From: a virus
IMG/VR virus record: IMGVR_UViG_3300031963_000233
Coordinates: 1-49,097 of that record
Length of the DNA stretch: 49,097 nucleotides
Reading direction: 5' to 3' (one strand)
Part shown: piece by piece, positions 19,968 through 38,982 of the stretch
How the letters are laid out: each line of letters begins with the position of its first letter
Position numbering within the stretch: the first letter of the stretch is position 1
Translations under genes and position numbers: made by a program
Notes under the pieces: model-generated
Seen by the model: the letters and a program-made list of their open reading frames with translations, nothing else
Told to the model about the DNA's origin: nothing
Databases searched by the model: none

Positions 19968-20402
19968 ATGGTTGAACTCAAATTTTTAAACTTGTCTTTA
20001 TTCCAAAAAGTGTACGCCCCAAACATGACCGTCTATCGGATATCATCAGGCAAGTACACCAAGCAAGAAGCCGAAACTTTAAAAAAGGCATTGACCAAAT
20101 TCAAGACTGACATTGAAGCCATGGTTAATAAATCGGTCATCATGCACGATACAGATTCGGCGTTCACATTGCCCATAGAATTTGAATTAGGCGACCCGTC
20201 TCAACCCGCCATTGATATACCCGACCCGCAACCGAAGTTGCCTGTAATGTCAAATAAACGGGCAAAGCCGACCGTTCCCAATGTGCCGTTGAAACCCGCA
20301 CCTAAAGAAAAGGTTGTAATACCAAATCTTGAACCGTACAAGTTTGCCGAACGGCCGACACGGATGCCCCGTAAAACCGTTATGAGTTGGAGTCAGGATT
20401 AG
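19968..20402 (+). CDS. Hypothetical protein with Pro-rich C-terminal half
   Basis: 144 residues. N-terminal half is a small helical domain (KYTKQEAETLKKALTKFKTD); the second half is Pro/Lys-rich and disordered (DPQPKLPVMSNKRAKPTVPN). Own promoter with a likely leaderless start. It faces the minus-strand block and overlaps the 3' end of the first minus-strand gene by 23 bases, with no terminator visible between them. Function unknown. Confidence 0.5.
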   Translation: MVELKFLNLSLFQKVYAPNMTVYRISSGKYTKQEAETLKKALTKFKTDIEAMVNKSVIMHDTDSAFTLPIEFELGDPSQPAIDIPDPQPKLPVMSNKRAKPTVPNVPLKPAPKEKVVIPNLEPYKFAERPTRMPRKTVMSWSQD

Positions 20403-20664
20403 CAGACGGCAAATCAACTTCACCGTCAAGACGGATGTATTCTTCCAATGCAAGTGTGTCGTCGGCATAAAGTTCCACACGGTGGATGATGCCGTCATCG
20501 TCAATACCTCTTGAAGATTGTATGGCGGCGTTCACCAATGCGAAAAAATTGTAAGGATTGTCTTCGTCAATGTTAGTGAATGAATGTGGCGGGGCGACGG
20601 CTTCGTGTGTCACAGGGTCAATAGGCACGATATAGAATGCCTTTATAAAATCGGTGTTATCCAT
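20380..20664 (-). CDS. Small acidic hypothetical protein
   Basis: 94 residues from the ATG at 20664 (the frame opens earlier with TTG only). Acidic, with FIKAFYIVPIDPVTHEAVAP and LYADDTLALEEYIRLDGEVD. Not recognised. It is the last gene of the minus-strand operon, directly after the glutamine amidotransferase, so it may belong to the amidoligase group. Its 3' end overlaps the convergent plus-strand gene. Confidence 0.5.
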   Translation of the reverse strand: MDNTDFIKAFYIVPIDPVTHEAVAPPHSFTNIDEDNPYNFFALVNAAIQSSRGIDDDGIIHRVELYADDTLALEEYIRLDGEVDLPSANPDSNS

Positions 20665-20672
20665 ACCCAAAA

Positions 20673-21407
20673 TTAATTTATTTCAGGTAATAGACCATAT
20701 ATTCGGGCACAAGGTTCGCAATAATCAAGACGGCGTTCCCGATATGTTTCAAGTGGTGCGGTGCAGTTCATACAACCACGGTCGTAGGATTTATGACCGT
20801 TCCAAATAAAGGAATAATCATAAGGGGGAATTTTGTTGAGTTTTTTACCCGTGGTGCGAGAATGCCCCGACTTGTAAGAACCGTTTGAGAACCAATTGCC
20901 GTTGTGCCATTGCCCCGCCTGTTCGTTAATGATTACCGATTTACCGTCTGAATCAAGGAACACGATTTTAGAACCGTTGCCAATATCACGGGCGACATCG
21001 GATTGGTCTTGTCGGTTAAGATAGAATTTTGGGTTTTTAAGTTTCAAGACCGTTTCGTTGTAGGTAACGGTGTCCGACTTCCCGACCAAAGGCGTGATGG
21101 GTATGATACCGTTATGAGCAAACGCAAGGTTTCGGTTAACACGGAACGGGTGACAGTTTTGTAAGTTGATTCCGCCATGGGTGGCTATCCGAAAATGAAG
21201 AACGATAGGTGAATCGGGGTTAGATTTTTTTATCTTTTTGTACAAGCGGAATATTCGGTCATGGTCATCAAGTGTTCGGTCAATGACAAGTCGGTTTTTC
21301 CTGATGTAAAGAATTCCCGTCCCGTCAGGATTCCGTTCCTGACAGGTGTTGAAAGTTTCACGGGAAATAGCGGGGGCGTTAGCGGGGTTCAGAATGATGA
21401 TGCACAT
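20673..21407 (-). CDS. Class II glutamine amidotransferase (Ntn hydrolase)
   Basis: 244 residues. It begins MCIII, so removal of Met exposes Cys as the N-terminal nucleophile of the class II GATase fold. NPDGTGILY (26-34), HFRIATHGG (71-79), CHPF (85-88) and AHNGII (97-102) are the glutamine-binding and oxyanion-hole motifs of YafJ-type enzymes. The enzyme releases ammonia from glutamine for a partner. A C-terminal zinc-ribbon-like extension with CMNC and CEPC is additional. The gene upstream encodes an amidoligase-like protein, its likely partner: families of this type are known to co-occur. Confidence 0.8.
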   Translation of the reverse strand: MCIIILNPANAPAISRETFNTCQERNPDGTGILYIRKNRLVIDRTLDDHDRIFRLYKKIKKSNPDSPIVLHFRIATHGGINLQNCHPFRVNRNLAFAHNGIIPITPLVGKSDTVTYNETVLKLKNPKFYLNRQDQSDVARDIGNGSKIVFLDSDGKSVIINEQAGQWHNGNWFSNGSYKSGHSRTTGKKLNKIPPYDYSFIWNGHKSYDRGCMNCTAPLETYRERRLDYCEPCARIYGLLPEIN

Positions 21408-21418
21408 AGTTATAAGGT

Positions 21419-22564
21419 TTAAAGGGTGTTAACGATTGCCATAGCGTGTTCCAAGGTGTAGTTGTTATAGTTTCCGTAGGTACGGGCGGCAACCACAGTA
21501 CGAGTCAGCATGGATTTAAGTTTGGCGGGGGTGTAGATTTTACGAAGATGTTTGCCAAGTGAAGTGTTCGGTCTGACCGCATTTTTGATGAGGTTGATGA
21601 TTCCGATTTCGGCGTCAGTATGGAAAGAGTGGTAAGACCGTGGGGACACAAGTATCCGCATCAGTTCCACCCGCCATTTAAGTTGTTCCAAGTTATTCAC
21701 GGCGGGGAAAATCCGAAGTTCAATTCGGTTGTTTTTCAAGGCCAAAGATTGGTATTTGTTACCGCCCGAGTGCATGATGTCAGTCCAAGTTTTCGCACCG
21801 CAATAGTGGTTGCGAACCCGTGAAGGATACATCCCATACAACAGGTTGATTGAGTGTTCAAAAAGTTTCGCAGTTTGAATGGTAGACAAACCACGGCGTG
21901 AAATGTTGATGTGGCCACCGCAACGGGATGAAGCGTTACCGTTGATGAGGTTTTCAACAGGTTTTAAAGAGGCATTAATCACAGATTCGTTGTGCAACGG
22001 AAGAACGGGGGAAACCATTTCGTATCCGATGTTGGAATCAAGTGAACCGTCCCGTTCGAGTTTCCAACCCGATTGGGCAAGCACGGCACGGGCAGATTTA
22101 TTGTGGGTCAGAATGATGTCCGACTCTTTTTCAATTTCAAGACCAATCAGGAAATTATCATCGGCTGAAGTCACATCAACATTGATGCCCGAGTGGTAGT
22201 TCAAAAGACGGGATTGGTGGGCGTTGGTAAGTTGAGTCATTGGATACCATCCACGGCGACGGTCAAAGTTATTTTCGTGTTGGTAACCGTAACCAAGTGA
22301 GTAAGCATATTCAGGGAGCATGTATTCGTTGTTCACGAAGGCAATCAAACCGTGGGCCTTATCGGAATCAGAACACATCAATGGGTTCACATGGATGATT
22401 GAGCGATTACGGGACACCGCCACGGTAACGGCTTGGCAAGTCAGGTAAAGTTGTTTGCGGGACAAAGTGAAATCGTAAGCGGCAACATTACCGGGGGCGA
22501 TGGGGTGAGGGATAGGTTGGTTTTTCATGGTTTCGGGGTTTTGGTTTTTTTTGTTCCGAATCAT
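21419..22564 (-). CDS. Putative amidoligase (COOH-NH2 ligase, glutamine-synthetase-like fold)
   Basis: 381 residues from the ATG at 22564, chosen because a CCGTTATTT promoter-like element ends 2 bases upstream; an ATG at 22528 is the alternative. The core has IGLEIEKE (about 140-147), RDGSLDSNIGYEMVSPVLPL (171-190), CGGHINIS (215-222) and NRIELRIFPA, which are the ATP/metal-binding signatures of the putative amidoligase family (PF12224 type). Such enzymes join an amine or ammonia to a carboxylate. With the adjoining amidotransferase it could amidate or crosslink a peptide, protein or small metabolite. The N-terminal 130 residues are specific to this phage protein. Confidence 0.75.
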   Translation of the reverse strand: MIRNKKNQNPETMKNQPIPHPIAPGNVAAYDFTLSRKQLYLTCQAVTVAVSRNRSIIHVNPLMCSDSDKAHGLIAFVNNEYMLPEYAYSLGYGYQHENNFDRRRGWYPMTQLTNAHQSRLLNYHSGINVDVTSADDNFLIGLEIEKESDIILTHNKSARAVLAQSGWKLERDGSLDSNIGYEMVSPVLPLHNESVINASLKPVENLINGNASSRCGGHINISRRGLSTIQTAKLFEHSINLLYGMYPSRVRNHYCGAKTWTDIMHSGGNKYQSLALKNNRIELRIFPAVNNLEQLKWRVELMRILVSPRSYHSFHTDAEIGIINLIKNAVRPNTSLGKHLRKIYTPAKLKSMLTRTVVAARTYGNYNNYTLEHAMAIVNTL

Positions 22565-22566
22565 GA

Positions 22567-22578
22567 CACAAATAACGG
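22567..22578 (-). promoter_or_regulatory. CCGTTATTT promoter-like element before the amidoligase
   Basis: Minus-strand CCGTTATTTGTG, followed after 2 bases by the ATG at 22564. The same 9-base core occurs in front of four other genes. A second candidate -7 box, TACATTTG, lies just upstream on the same strand with TTTT 19 bases before it. Confidence 0.5.
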
Positions 22579-22615
22579 TCGACAAATGTAATAAAAAAAA
22601 CATTTGCTGAAAAAG

Positions 22616-22646
22616 TTATCCACAATTTATCCACAATTTATCCACA
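22616..22646 (+). promoter_or_regulatory. Three phased DnaA boxes
   Basis: TTATCCACA at 22616-22624, 22627-22635 and 22638-22646, all perfect matches to the DnaA box consensus TTATnCACA, spaced exactly 11 bases so they face one side of the helix. The 40 bases 22598-22637 are identical to 27434-27473. The cluster lies in the 154-base gap between the VRR-NUC and amidoligase genes, otherwise AT-rich with no gene seen. It may be a replication origin or a site where host DnaA controls the operon. Confidence 0.75.
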
Positions 22647-24809: not shown

Positions 24810-25178
24810 TTAAACAGTTCCTGTTACCCATCCCGTGATAAGATTTCGCACCCCTTGGGTGGATAAATTCGTAGACCCGAAATCAGTAGGGTCTTTTTTG
24901 TTATTCCCGCAAACAATGATTCGTCCGAATATAGGTTGTTTGTACCCCGAAAGCATTGTTCCGTATTTTACTTTTTTGATTTCAGCATGACCCGAAAAAA
25001 GACCTTCTTCATCCACAAGAAGATTCGTTACTCCGTCAAGTCGCACGAGTTCAAATAAGTCGCACCCCGCCCCGATTGTTTTGGTGATTCCATCAACGGT
25101 AAGGGACATTTCAAATGAAGTAACTTCCCGCACGAAAGGGTCAATTACGCATACCTTGATTTTAGTGGTTTTATTCAT
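24810..25178 (-). CDS. DUF3846-like hypothetical protein
   Basis: 122 residues. IGAGCDLFELVRLDGVTNLLVDEEGLFSG and PIFGRIIVCGNNKK follow the pattern of small DUF3846-type proteins (a question about a residue of plasmid/phage origin of unknown role): beta strand, then a VDEEG turn, then a hydrophobic strand with GxxVVxG. It overlaps the ERF gene by 8 bases. Function not known. Confidence 0.4.
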   Translation of the reverse strand: MNKTTKIKVCVIDPFVREVTSFEMSLTVDGITKTIGAGCDLFELVRLDGVTNLLVDEEGLFSGHAEIKKVKYGTMLSGYKQPIFGRIIVCGNNKKDPTDFGSTNLSTQGVRNLITGWVTGTV

Positions 25179-27451: not shown

Positions 27452-27471
27452 TTATCCACAATTTATCCACA
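27452..27471 (+). promoter_or_regulatory. Two phased DnaA boxes
   Basis: TTATCCACA at 27452-27460 and 27463-27471, 11 bases apart, within a 40-base block identical to 22598-22637. They lie between the helicase stop and the small duplicate gene. Confidence 0.75.
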
Positions 27472-31119: not shown

Positions 31120-31923
31120 ATGAAAACAATTCATTCTTTATCAGGAGGTAAAACCTCAAGTTATATGGCAGTTCATTACCCTGCTGATTATAATATTTTT
31201 GCTTTAGTTACTATTGATGATTTATCTTGTTCTCCAAATAAAGACCTTGTTAAAAAGATATCTGATAAAATAGGTAAAGAGTTTATCGCAACCGCTGAAG
31301 ACGATAAGACATTGATTGCAATGCTTGATTTAGAGCAAAAATTAGGAAAAGAGATTATTTGGGTAGTTGGGAATTCTTTTGATAATGTTATTAAAAAGGC
31401 TACCATATTGCCTAATATGATGAGGAGATTCTGCACAAGTGAAATGAAGATGAAACCGATATTTGATTGGTGGCAAAAAAATATAAACGAGACGATAAAA
31501 ATGGGTGTTGGTTTTAGATATGACGAAAAAGAAAGAGCTGAAAGGTTTTCAAAGTCATTTAAAACTATTGTAGGAAAACATCCAAGTGGTAAGAATAAAT
31601 GGGCAGAAATGGAATGGCGAGAAGGTTGGTTTCCTTTAATAGATAACAAAATAGGGCATTATACAGTTTATCAATGGGCAGAGAAGTCAGGAATAGAATT
31701 TCCTAAAGATTCAAATTGTGTAGGGTGTTTTTGGAAACCTGTTCAGCAATTAAGAAAGAATTGGGATGATAACCCTGAAAAGATGACTTGGTTTGCTAAT
31801 AAAGAGGGTAAATCACATTGGAAAGAAGAAATAACATATAATCAAATTAAAAAGGTAGGTCTTCAGCAAGACTTCTTTTTCGGTACCGGTTCAGGTTGTC
31901 AGGCGGGATTTTGCACAGATTAA
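31120..31923 (+). CDS. PP-loop ATPase, PAPS-reductase-like, with cysteine C-terminus; inserted gene
   Basis: 267 residues. SGGKTSS at 8-14 is the PP-loop that binds ATP; MMRRFCTSEMKMKPIFDWW near residue 105 matches the conserved RRCT..LK.. segment of phage PAPS-reductase/adenine-nucleotide-hydrolase-like proteins, and the C-terminus holds NCVGCFWKP and GCQAGFC, likely iron-sulfur ligands. Such enzymes activate a substrate by adenylation, commonly in sulfur transfer to nucleic acids. The gene is markedly more AT-rich than its neighbours and lies between 29-bp direct repeats, so it seems a late arrival. No target is known. Confidence 0.7.
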   Translation: MKTIHSLSGGKTSSYMAVHYPADYNIFALVTIDDLSCSPNKDLVKKISDKIGKEFIATAEDDKTLIAMLDLEQKLGKEIIWVVGNSFDNVIKKATILPNMMRRFCTSEMKMKPIFDWWQKNINETIKMGVGFRYDEKERAERFSKSFKTIVGKHPSGKNKWAEMEWREGWFPLIDNKIGHYTVYQWAEKSGIEFPKDSNCVGCFWKPVQQLRKNWDDNPEKMTWFANKEGKSHWKEEITYNQIKKVGLQQDFFFGTGSGCQAGFCTD

Positions 31924-34242: not shown

Positions 34243-35469
34243 ATGCCCGTATCGTATCTTAATCAAACCGTATTGGAGGCCGCTAAAGAACGGATACGAT
34301 ATCTATTTAACGAGTTTCCGAATGTAATAGTCGGAATATCAGGGGGCAAAGATTCAACTGTCGTATTCAATTTGTGTTTGGAAATTGCGGAAGAAATGAA
34401 CCGTCTGCCGTTACACACAGTTTGGATTGACCAAGAAGCCGAATGGCAAGGAACGGTAGATTATGTCCGTGACATCATGTATGACAAACGGGTTAAGCCT
34501 GTGTGGTTGCAAGTTCCTTTTAAAATGACAAACAACGCATCCACGACGGAACGCTTTGTATCTGTTTGGAATCCTGATTTACCGCCCGAACAATACATTC
34601 ACCCAAAAGACCCGATTGCATACCATGAGAATATTTTCGGTAAAGACCGATTTCATGATATGTTTAACGGCGTAGTGCAAACATTATTTAAGGGGCAAAA
34701 AGCTTGTTTGATAGGCGGGGTTCGTACTGAAGAAACGCCAAAACGGTTCATAGTTCTTACATCGGGGTCACCGACATACAAACACATTACTTGGGGTAAA
34801 ATCATCAATAAAAAAACAGAACAATTCGTTTTTTACCCTATATACGATTGGCGTGTTACGGATGTGTGGAAATACATCCATGATAATAAAGTTCCTTATA
34901 ACCGAATCTACGACGAAATGTACAGGCACGGTGTACCCGTCAAGGATATGCGGATAAGCAACTTGCACCATGAAACCGCCGTTCAGAACATTCTACTTGT
35001 CCAAGAGATTGAACCGCAAACATGGAATAAATTGGCTGACCGAATTGCGGGGGCAAATACAATCAAGCACATCAAAAAAAATGCTTTCCAATGCCCGACG
35101 GAACTTCCGCCAATGTTTAACGATTGGGTAGATTACACGGAATATCTTGCCGACAAACTTATACCGAATCATGAACTTAAATCAAAGTTCCACGAAATCG
35201 TTGGCCGGAAACTTAAAATAGTCACCGACGAACGGGTAAAAACCGATTTCCTGAAAGTAGCCATCAACACGATACTTTGTTCAGATTTTGACTTTACCAA
35301 AATAACAAACTTCTTTGCAACAAGGCATTTAAGGGCATACATCCAAGCGAAAAATGGTCTTGCCACAATTGACGATGTGCAATACGCCAAATATCTTACA
35401 ACCGAACAAATACATGACATCATTTCAAGACATACCAACCGAACCAAAGGAACGGATTCAGGCAATTAA
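34243..35469 (+). CDS. IbrA-like PAPS-reductase-family protein (DUF3440 type)
   Basis: 408 residues. IVGISGGKDSTVVFNL has the PP-loop (33-39); EAEWQGTVDYVRDIM, GVRTEETPKRF and YPIYDWRVTDVWKYI match the extended PAPS-reductase layout of IbrA-like proteins, which carry an additional C-terminal domain. Their biochemical reaction is unresolved; in E. coli, IbrA and IbrB affect expression of surface-protein genes and related pairs are common in phages. The next gene encodes the IbrB-like partner and overlaps by 56 bases. Confidence 0.75.
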   Translation: MPVSYLNQTVLEAAKERIRYLFNEFPNVIVGISGGKDSTVVFNLCLEIAEEMNRLPLHTVWIDQEAEWQGTVDYVRDIMYDKRVKPVWLQVPFKMTNNASTTERFVSVWNPDLPPEQYIHPKDPIAYHENIFGKDRFHDMFNGVVQTLFKGQKACLIGGVRTEETPKRFIVLTSGSPTYKHITWGKIINKKTEQFVFYPIYDWRVTDVWKYIHDNKVPYNRIYDEMYRHGVPVKDMRISNLHHETAVQNILLVQEIEPQTWNKLADRIAGANTIKHIKKNAFQCPTELPPMFNDWVDYTEYLADKLIPNHELKSKFHEIVGRKLKIVTDERVKTDFLKVAINTILCSDFDFTKITNFFATRHLRAYIQAKNGLATIDDVQYAKYLTTEQIHDIISRHTNRTKGTDSGN

Positions 35470-36386: not shown

Positions 36387-37687
36387 TTTCAGAAACCGAA
36401 ATTGAAGTCCCCATACCAACGCTACACCCCGGGCAACGGCACATTCTCAAGAATGCCCGACGGTTTAATGTTATTTCATGCGGACGAAGATTCGGTAAAA
36501 CAGAAATGGCCAAACGGTTGCTATTAATCGGTGACGACAATGGCGCTATCAACGGTTACCCCGTAGCATATTTTTGCCCGACATTCAAAATGTTATCTGA
36601 AGTATGGCGTGGGGTAAACCAAATGTATCAGTCAATCATAAAAAACAAGAGTGAGCAAGAAAAACGCATTGAGTTCATAACAGGCGGGGTGATTGAGTAT
36701 TGGTCAATGGAAAACATTGATTCCGTCCGAGGCCGTAAATACAAAAGGGTTGTCATTGACGAAGCCGCCATCGTTTCGGGTGAACGGCTGAAAATGGCAT
36801 GGGAGCAATCCATCCGCCCGTTGCTTACCGATTACGAAGGTGATGCGTGGTTTTTATCCACACCGAAAGGAAAGAAGCATTATTACGCAACCTTGGCGGG
36901 AAACCACGAAAAAGACCCCCAAAGATGGGCGTTTTTCCAAATGCCTACCACGGCTAACCCGTACATCAACCCCGACGAAGTTGAATCGGCAAAAAATGAA
37001 CTACCGCCCGTCGTTTTTGCACAGGAATATTTGGCTGAATTTACCGACATGGCATCGGATAATTTGTTTATCTACGCTTTTGATAGAAAAAAACACATTC
37101 CAACCGTACCATATACATACGACAAAGCGTTGCCCGTTTACATTTCAGTTGACTTTAATGTGAGTCCGATGACCGCCATCGTGGTACAAATGGACTTACA
37201 TCAGCGGTTTATTAGGGTAATCGGGGAATACAGGCTTATGAATTCCGATGTATTTGCTTTATGCGACCGAATCAAGCAAGATTATGATACCCGTTTTATT
37301 TACATTACAGGTGATTCAGCGGGGTGGAACAGGTCGGCGGGTAATCGGGGGCATAAATCTATGTATGACATCATACAGGGGCAATTAAACCTTAATTGGA
37401 CGCAAATAAAAACACCCCGTGGTAAACCGTCAGGATATGTGGCCGAAAAACGGCAAGTGACAAATTCGCTCCTTGCCCGACATCCCGACTTTACATTTTC
37501 CAATTGCCCTTTTTTGATTGATGATATTGAGAATGTTGACGCAAACGAAAGTGGCCAAATGGATAAATCGGATTTAAACCGCACCCATTTACTTGACTGT
37601 CTTTGCGATTTCCTCTACGCTCAGTGCAGAACATCGCTAAAAACATTAAGTAGTCTAAAACATCAACCAAATGAAATACATAGTTAA
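36383..37687 (+). CDS. Terminase large subunit
   Basis: 434 residues with both domains. ATPase: SCGRRFGKTEMA Walker A (33-40), the YFCPTFKM loop, and RVVIDEAA Walker B with catalytic Glu (122-129), then LLTDYEGDAWFLSTPKGKKH as the coupling motif. Nuclease: YISVDFNVSPM (about 251-261), FIYITGDSAGW (about 304-314) and a C-terminal SDLNRTHLLDCLCDF, the RNase H-like acidic residues. It cuts and pumps phage DNA into the head. Confidence 0.9.
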   Translation: MISETEIEVPIPTLHPGQRHILKNARRFNVISCGRRFGKTEMAKRLLLIGDDNGAINGYPVAYFCPTFKMLSEVWRGVNQMYQSIIKNKSEQEKRIEFITGGVIEYWSMENIDSVRGRKYKRVVIDEAAIVSGERLKMAWEQSIRPLLTDYEGDAWFLSTPKGKKHYYATLAGNHEKDPQRWAFFQMPTTANPYINPDEVESAKNELPPVVFAQEYLAEFTDMASDNLFIYAFDRKKHIPTVPYTYDKALPVYISVDFNVSPMTAIVVQMDLHQRFIRVIGEYRLMNSDVFALCDRIKQDYDTRFIYITGDSAGWNRSAGNRGHKSMYDIIQGQLNLNWTQIKTPRGKPSGYVAEKRQVTNSLLARHPDFTFSNCPFLIDDIENVDANESGQMDKSDLNRTHLLDCLCDFLYAQCRTSLKTLSSLKHQPNEIHS

Positions 37688-38264: not shown

Positions 38265-38335
38265 GGACAAGTGGCCGAGTGGTTAGGCATGGCTCTGCAA
38301 AAGCTCCTACGCAGGTTCAAATCCTGTCTTGTCCT
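38265..38335 (+). tRNA. tRNA-Cys (anticodon GCA)
   Basis: Acceptor stem GGACAAG (38265-38271) pairs with CTTGTCC (38328-38334). The D arm is GGCCGAGTGGTTAGGC, the anticodon loop CTGCAAA (38295-38301) gives GCA, and the T arm has GGTTCAAATCC. CCA is not encoded, as is usual outside some bacteria. It is the only tRNA I find. It lies 7 bases after the glycosyltransferase-like gene and 14 before the sulfotransferase-like gene. Confidence 0.9.
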
Positions 38336-38349
38336 CAAATAAATAACCA

Positions 38350-38982
38350 ATGAGTCTTGTAATTGAAAACAAACTGTTATTTGTCCACACTAAAAAAACC
38401 GGTGGGACATTTATCAAGCATACATTCATGCGGTCGGGATATAAGATAACCAACCCATGGCGTGAAGAAGAAAGCCAAATCTTTGAACACATGCCTGTCA
38501 GGGAATTGCATCAAACATTCCCCCAATTGAAAGAAATACCGTCATTTTGTTTCGTCCGTGACCCAATTCAATGGTATCGGTCGCTTTATTGTTGGTTGGC
38601 GGTAATGAAAAACCCCACAGGGTGGAAGGCGGACATCAATCAGGAAAGTTTTGAAAAGTACATGGAAAATGTTTTTGAGCATTTCCCCCGTTACGCATCG
38701 CATCAGATACTTGTCCCCGCCGGGTACGGGTTCAATGTGTTAGACAATCAGATATTCGGGACTCGTGTTGTAACAGATATCGGTAAATACGAAACCTTGT
38801 TACAGGATTTATACGCCATCGCTGACCGTCATGGGTTACCACTTGACCCGTCATTATTGCTGAATCATAAACGGTCAAAAGAAGCGGGAAACATATCAGA
38901 TATATATGTTCCAATATCAATTGCTCAACGGGTAATTGAAGAAGAAAAAAATGTTTATAAACTGTTTTACAACATCAGATAA
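38350..38982 (+). CDS. Putative sulfotransferase-family protein
   Basis: 210 residues. LLFVHTKKTGGTFIKHTFMR (about 9-28) carries the 5' phosphosulfate-binding loop, and CFVRDPIQWYRSLYCW (about 62-77) matches the 3' phosphate-binding RDPxxRxxS segment of PAPS-dependent sulfotransferases. Such enzymes move sulfate from PAPS to sugars, proteins or lipids. In this context a glycan or virion protein is likely. It overlaps the tail chaperone start by one base. Confidence 0.65.
   Translation: MSLVIENKLLFVHTKKTGGTFIKHTFMRSGYKITNPWREEESQIFEHMPVRELHQTFPQLKEIPSFCFVRDPIQWYRSLYCWLAVMKNPTGWKADINQESFEKYMENVFEHFPRYASHQILVPAGYGFNVLDNQIFGTRVVTDIGKYETLLQDLYAIADRHGLPLDPSLLLNHKRSKEAGNISDIYVPISIAQRVIEEEKNVYKLFYNIR

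Follow-up and report, generated by a model that had tools for sequence, protein, structure and literature searches.

Phage-encoded amidoligases have been described together with a class II glutamine amidotransferase in several groups of phages. The pair of genes is annotated in mycobacteriophage Marvin (Mageeney 2012, cited in PMC10580990) and in more than 30 genomes of OM43 phages (PMC10580990); in Marvin and in the OM43 phages MEP401 and MEP402, the same two genes are found in the same order, overlapping or adjacent. An amidoligase and a class II amidotransferase also belong to the cassette of phiEco32, LUZ24, RIO-1, and PSA-HP1, where they are encoded close to early genes; this cassette, however, adds genes for a gamma-glutamyl cyclotransferase, an ATP-grasp protein, and a COOH-NH2 ligase. 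Amidation of peptidoglycan for superinfection exclusion was proposed for the phiEco32-type phages (Iyer et al. 2009, cited in PMC10580990), and a similar 'peptidoglycan modification cassette' appears in PMC5498523 and PMC11945000.

The DNA analyzed here (henceforth the window) is the IMG/VR virus record IMGVR_UViG_3300031963_000233 in its full length of 49,097 bases, which encodes a terminase large subunit. The host of this virus is probably a Bacteroidota bacterium, since the relatives of its primase-helicase in sequenced phages stem nearly all from phages of Flavobacterium, Cellulophaga, and similar hosts. The minus-strand operon in which the pair is situated (Table 1) also comprises the genes for this primase-helicase, an ERF annealing protein, a YqaJ exonuclease, and a predicted nuclease. 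The pair fits the type of MEP401, MEP402, and Marvin in that both genes neighbour each other on the same strand and are conserved jointly, and gp07 of MEP402 exhibits 38% identity to the amidotransferase of the window over residues 1-179. From the phiEco32-type cassette the locus differs in gene order; moreover, a cyclotransferase, an ATP-grasp protein, or a COOH-NH2 ligase was found neither in the operon nor in the Pfam matches (E <= 0.01) of the 52 other window proteins, among the 25 of 27 families listed.

Organization of the locus

An earlier note on this DNA had read the two adjacent minus-strand genes as an amidoligase and an amidotransferase on the basis of short motifs, all of which are present (GLEIEKE, CGGHINIS, and NRIELRIFPA in the former; HFRIATHG, CHPF, and AHNG in the latter). 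The gap between both genes, given there as 9 bp, amounts to 11 bp (21408-21418). Concerning the amidoligase start, ATG 22564 (381 aa), from which the earlier note had counted, and ATG 22528 are equally likely as the one given in Table 1. The small acidic protein that the note had placed after the pair is indeed encoded next in the operon, its ORF beginning 8 bp past the amidotransferase stop.

Table 1. Position of the features of the amidoligase-amidotransferase locus and of the related integrative elements
Feature	Sequence	Position	Strand	Remark
Amidoligase with predicted glutamine-synthetase-like catalytic domain	Window	21419..22603	-	ORF of 394 aa from ATG 22603
Class II (N-terminal Cys, Ntn-type) glutamine amidotransferase	Window	20673..21407	-	
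Zinc-ribbon-like C-terminal segment of the amidotransferase	Window	20709..20774	-	C212xxC215 ... C230xxC233
Acidic protein, 94 residues	Window	20380..20664	-	ATG 20664; pI 4.05; next operon gene
-7-like element TACATTTG	Window	22583..22590	-	Cf. Bacteroidota TAnnTTTG; just upstream of ATG 22564
Three DnaA-box-like TTATCCACA	Window	22616..22646	.	11-bp spacing; upstream of the amidoligase
Integrative element: backbone with pair, serine recombinase, and HerA-like gene; exchanged defence genes as cargo	L107	2886-11889		
Integrative element: same organization	L108	6359-11092		

The -7-like element carries little weight as evidence, 41 such matches being present in the window against 50 expected. 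The exact DnaA-box TTATCCACA occurs eight times in the window against 0.58 expected, a number reached by none of 100 shuffles. Besides the three copies upstream of the amidoligase, two copies with the same spacing of 11 bp (27452-27471) follow just past the primase-helicase gene, and single ones are located at 36854, 47473, and 47933; the clusters might constitute a replication origin or an operator.

Among the further genes of the window, two encode PAPS-reductase-like proteins (31120-31923 and 34243-35469; phrog_424 and phrog_2302), which, together with a DUF3440 match and two ParB_N proteins from the Pfam scan, recall an IbrA/IbrB-like module. A sulfotransferase-like gene (38350-38982; phrog_3347, E 2.9e-12) is situated near a tRNA-Cys gene (38265-38336). 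The early operon additionally contains a DUF3846 protein (24810-25178), which remains below the Pfam cut-off. Gut Firmicutes contigs likewise encode a DUF3846 protein immediately behind the pair (L098:4098-4436) and carry DUF4313 as well.

Family, fold, and catalytic residues of the two proteins

The assignment of both families proposed in the earlier note is upheld by homology, predicted folds, and complete sets of catalytic residues; the Pfam profiles agree with it for one protein only. The amidotransferase passes GATase_4 (PF13230; E 4.6e-7, 29.5 bits vs a cut-off of 23), whereas the amidoligase misses the cut-off of Amidoligase_2 (PF12224; 16.0 bits vs 22, E 0.012). PF12224 is, however, matched by 25 of 37 homologous paired amidoligases (E <= 0.01; best 1.1e-53), and a leave-one-out model built from 34 relatives, with the window excluded, finds the window protein at E 2.2e-41. 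Its assignment therefore rests on this homology and on the fold rather than on its own Pfam score.

In the AlphaFold model, the catalytic domain of the amidoligase spans about residues 150-394 of 394, whereas the N-terminal part of about 148 residues is without a confident model. The predicted fold is that of glutamine synthetases, in agreement with the earlier note: all of the 36 best PDB matches are glutamine synthetases and gamma-glutamylmethylamide synthetases (GmaS), the best with 1.6e-5 and a probability of 1.00. A sequence search of the PDB with the amidoligase, as single sequence or as profile, gave no match. The catalytic ExE, E, H, and ExR of the family are present in the window protein (E156, E158, E195, H231, R262, E295, and R297). 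Among 35 non-redundant pairs, H231 and R297 are conserved in all, D185, R262, and E295 in 34, and E156 and E158 in 33.

For the amidotransferase, which also matches PHROG phrog_25883 (4e-16), the model suggests an Ntn glutaminase fold, matching the glutaminase domain of GlmS (1xff, E 8.6e-7, probability 1.00), EgtC, and PurF. As in class II enzymes, a cysteine occupies position 2, accompanied by the arginine, the Asn-Gly oxyanion site, and the aspartate that binds glutamine; no member of the whole set (C2, R73, H86, N99, G100, and D112) varies among the 35 non-redundant pairs. The zinc ribbon noticed earlier is supported by its four cysteines (C212, C215, C230, and C233), none of which differs between the window protein and its seven closest relatives, although the model confidence in this segment is low.

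Linkage of the genes and their occurrence outside phages

The pairing of amidoligase and amidotransferase in viral contigs is close to obligate; a pair not kept together in related phages would have spoken against the reading of the earlier note. Scanning viral contigs for the amidotransferase alone yielded 186 relatives, 80 of which were kept; an adjacent amidoligase on the same strand accompanies 79 of them, and the sole unpaired one starts 66 bases from the contig end. In the reciprocal scan for the amidoligase alone (131 relatives, 80 kept), an amidotransferase is encoded on the same strand in 76 cases, in 69 of these within 100 bp, and the four unpaired genes are all situated at most 403 bases from a contig end. 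The two scans overlap in some contigs and are thus not independent. With either window protein as a single sequence, or with a two-sequence amidoligase alignment, the viral contig scans gave nothing. Since the pair is kept in dozens of independent contigs, chance adjacency is excluded.

The genes frequently overlap or almost touch, usually with the amidoligase first, the reverse order being found as well. The pairwise distances of the two proteins are modestly correlated (Mantel r 0.30; the highest of 5000 permutations reached 0.19). In three loci (L070, L074, and L082), a single amidoligase is flanked on both sides by amidotransferase genes, which differ in their C-terminal regions. Arrays of CxxC are found elsewhere at the C-terminus of the amidotransferase, at the N-terminus of the amidoligase, in both, or in neither; because both proteins are free of CxxC pairs in many loci (43 of 93 in one count, 28 of 76 in the amidoligase-first scan), the pair does not depend on the zinc ribbon. 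Genes for replication are found beside the pair most often, and a cyclotransferase or an ATP-grasp protein is encoded nearby in a minority of loci only. A third conserved partner was not found, no neighbour family occurring in more than 4 of 40 amidotransferase clusters. The two-gene pair is the smallest version of such an arrangement, and its members are almost never apart.

The phage setting assumed in the earlier note applies to the window and to the viral contigs, but is too narrow, as the pair is also found on conjugative and integrative elements. In Chitinophaga eiseniae (L094), the overlapping genes lie between PRTRC_B/ThiF and traN, traM, traK, traJ, and traG, within a Bacteroidota conjugative transposon. 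In two further Bacteroidota genomes, which belong to one family, the pair is part of a block of 6.2 kb that is 83% identical between both and contains, in addition, genes for a serine recombinase and for a HerA-like protein; in the surrounding region, one genome has a gene similar to the T4SS coupling protein, the other a tyrosine integrase. The conserved block extends for about 64 bases beyond the amidotransferase stop. The two genomes diverge directly at this edge: in one it is adjoined by a type IIG restriction-modification gene, by a short pAgo and its Aga partner, and by a TIR protein, in the other by QatB, QatC, and QatD. The element is a possible cargo hotspot in which new defence systems might be discovered. 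Observed in two related elements only, the defence neighbourhood of the pair is suggestive and not established; this neighbourhood alone does not make the pair a defence system, because the pair belongs to the backbone of the element and not to the swapped cargo. Overall, few Bacteroidota chromosomes carry the pair (1 of 398 genomes in the order of Chitinophaga, 3 of 395 across the phylum), and plasmid matches comprised mycobacterial records and one from Ideonella only.

Possible reaction, target, and role

In the chemistry of these families, Ntn enzymes convert glutamine into glutamate and ammonia, and glutamine-synthetase-like enzymes activate and amidate a carboxylate at the expense of ATP. 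As the linkage is near-obligate, we infer that the two proteins form a complex and work as one enzyme. The amidotransferase would hydrolyze glutamine by means of its N-terminal cysteine and hand the ammonia over to the amidoligase, which would use ATP to convert a carboxylate of the substrate via an acyl phosphate into the amide. The target would most likely be a carboxylate of a cytoplasmic macromolecule containing peptide, either the peptide part of a peptidoglycan precursor or a protein modified at acidic residues, and the zinc ribbons recurring on either partner would aid in binding it. Since the pair is carried by tailed phages, a conjugative transposon, and an integrative element, its purpose is probably connected with conflict between the mobile element and its host or a rival element, be it the exclusion of competitors or the evasion of a host response. 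Taken together, we regard it as fairly probable, judging from sequences and models, that the two genes encode a single two-subunit glutamine-dependent amide ligase with a peptide-containing macromolecular target and a role in such conflicts.

As to the target, the sequence evidence reaches as far as the alternatives of the earlier note, namely modification of peptidoglycan, modification of a protein, or synthesis of a metabolite. Amidation of the stem peptides of host peptidoglycan precursors (at the carboxylates of D-Glu or meso-DAP), by which superinfecting phages would be excluded, is a possible though by no means favoured explanation. LtsA/AsnB provides a precedent for a class II amidotransferase amidating meso-DAP, and in two phages (L002 and L011) a fusion of the amidotransferase with a gamma-glutamyl cyclotransferase connects the pair with the larger cassette of phages. 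In the window and in nearly all other two-gene loci, however, the cyclotransferase, the ATP-grasp protein, and the COOH-NH2 ligase are lacking, and the pair is surrounded by genes of replication and recombination rather than of the cell wall. The pair is also present on conjugative and integrative elements, and its carriage by conjugative ones would fit only if the effect were a general exclusion. Cell wall modification with superinfection exclusion has, moreover, been the label on phage amidoligases for years, and the passages of PMC10580990, PMC5498523, and PMC11945000 that put it forward for them cite no experiment. It appears about as likely as the published wall proposal that a protein is the target, with the zinc ribbon serving to bind it. 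The pair might then modify a host or phage protein, counter a host defence, or defend its carrier, as an early-expressed function of mobile elements. This reading is tentative: the ribbons suggest a macromolecular partner, and the position in an early replication operon, the copy beside PRTRC genes on the conjugative transposon, and the copy in the element backbone adjacent to swapped defence genes all agree with it, but the defence context is confined to two closely related elements of one family, and there the pair stands outside the exchanged cargo. Production of a small amide metabolite, or modification of a nucleobase precursor for phage DNA synthesis, is improbable. The recombination and replication genes in the operon, as well as the replication genes around other pairs, would agree with it; enzymes of nucleotide modification, in contrast, are neither present beside the pair of the window nor enriched in related loci, and other pairs reside on conjugative elements.

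The earlier note had considered the acidic protein as the substrate, which would amount to an arrangement resembling that of Pup or of RiPPs; its gene follows immediately in the same operon. Modification of small acidic proteins by glutamine-synthetase-like ligases is indeed known from pupylation. The protein has no relative, however, among the ORFs of the compared pair-bearing loci or in the viral collection, the genes that follow other pairs differ from one another in size, charge, and family, and its C-terminus reads ...NPDSNS instead of ending in Glu or Gln. A conserved substrate and a pupylation-like system were both rejected on these grounds, and a dedicated substrate of either kind is highly improbable.

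That the pair exists beyond phages, and in two cases next to defence genes, speaks for a role more general than the one implied by the label on phage amidoligases. Tentatively, the pair may represent a general conflict module of mobile elements that amidates a target in a protein or in the envelope and thereby disarms a host response or excludes competitors, in phages, the conjugative transposon, and the integrative element alike. Being small enough to be expressed, assayed, and knocked out, the pair renders the question of the substrate testable.

Compared with known enzymes, the amidoligase resembles glutamine synthetase and GmaS in its predicted fold and in the ExE, HxH-like, and ExR motifs of the active site, but shares with them only about 12-16% identity and has its partner glutaminase encoded in a separate gene. 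The amidotransferase has the predicted Ntn fold, the N-terminal cysteine, and the complete glutamine-binding set in common with the glutaminase domain of GlmS, EgtC, and PurF, whereas it is devoid of a fused synthase domain, possesses a zinc ribbon instead, and has a glutamine-synthetase-like ligase as partner. Among the phage pairs, MEP402 exhibits CxxC pairs in the N-terminus of the amidoligase and none in the amidotransferase, the reverse of the situation in the window, and Corazon, which is of the Marvin type, possesses them on both proteins. In published work, as far as an incomplete literature search extends, the reciprocal near-obligate linkage, the variable placement of the ribbon, and the conjugative and defence-linked integrative contexts were not found. 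Such pairs as such are known already from phages of Methylophilales (the OM43 phages) and Mycobacterium (Marvin), hosts that differ from that of the window, which adds a member from a probable Bacteroidota phage.
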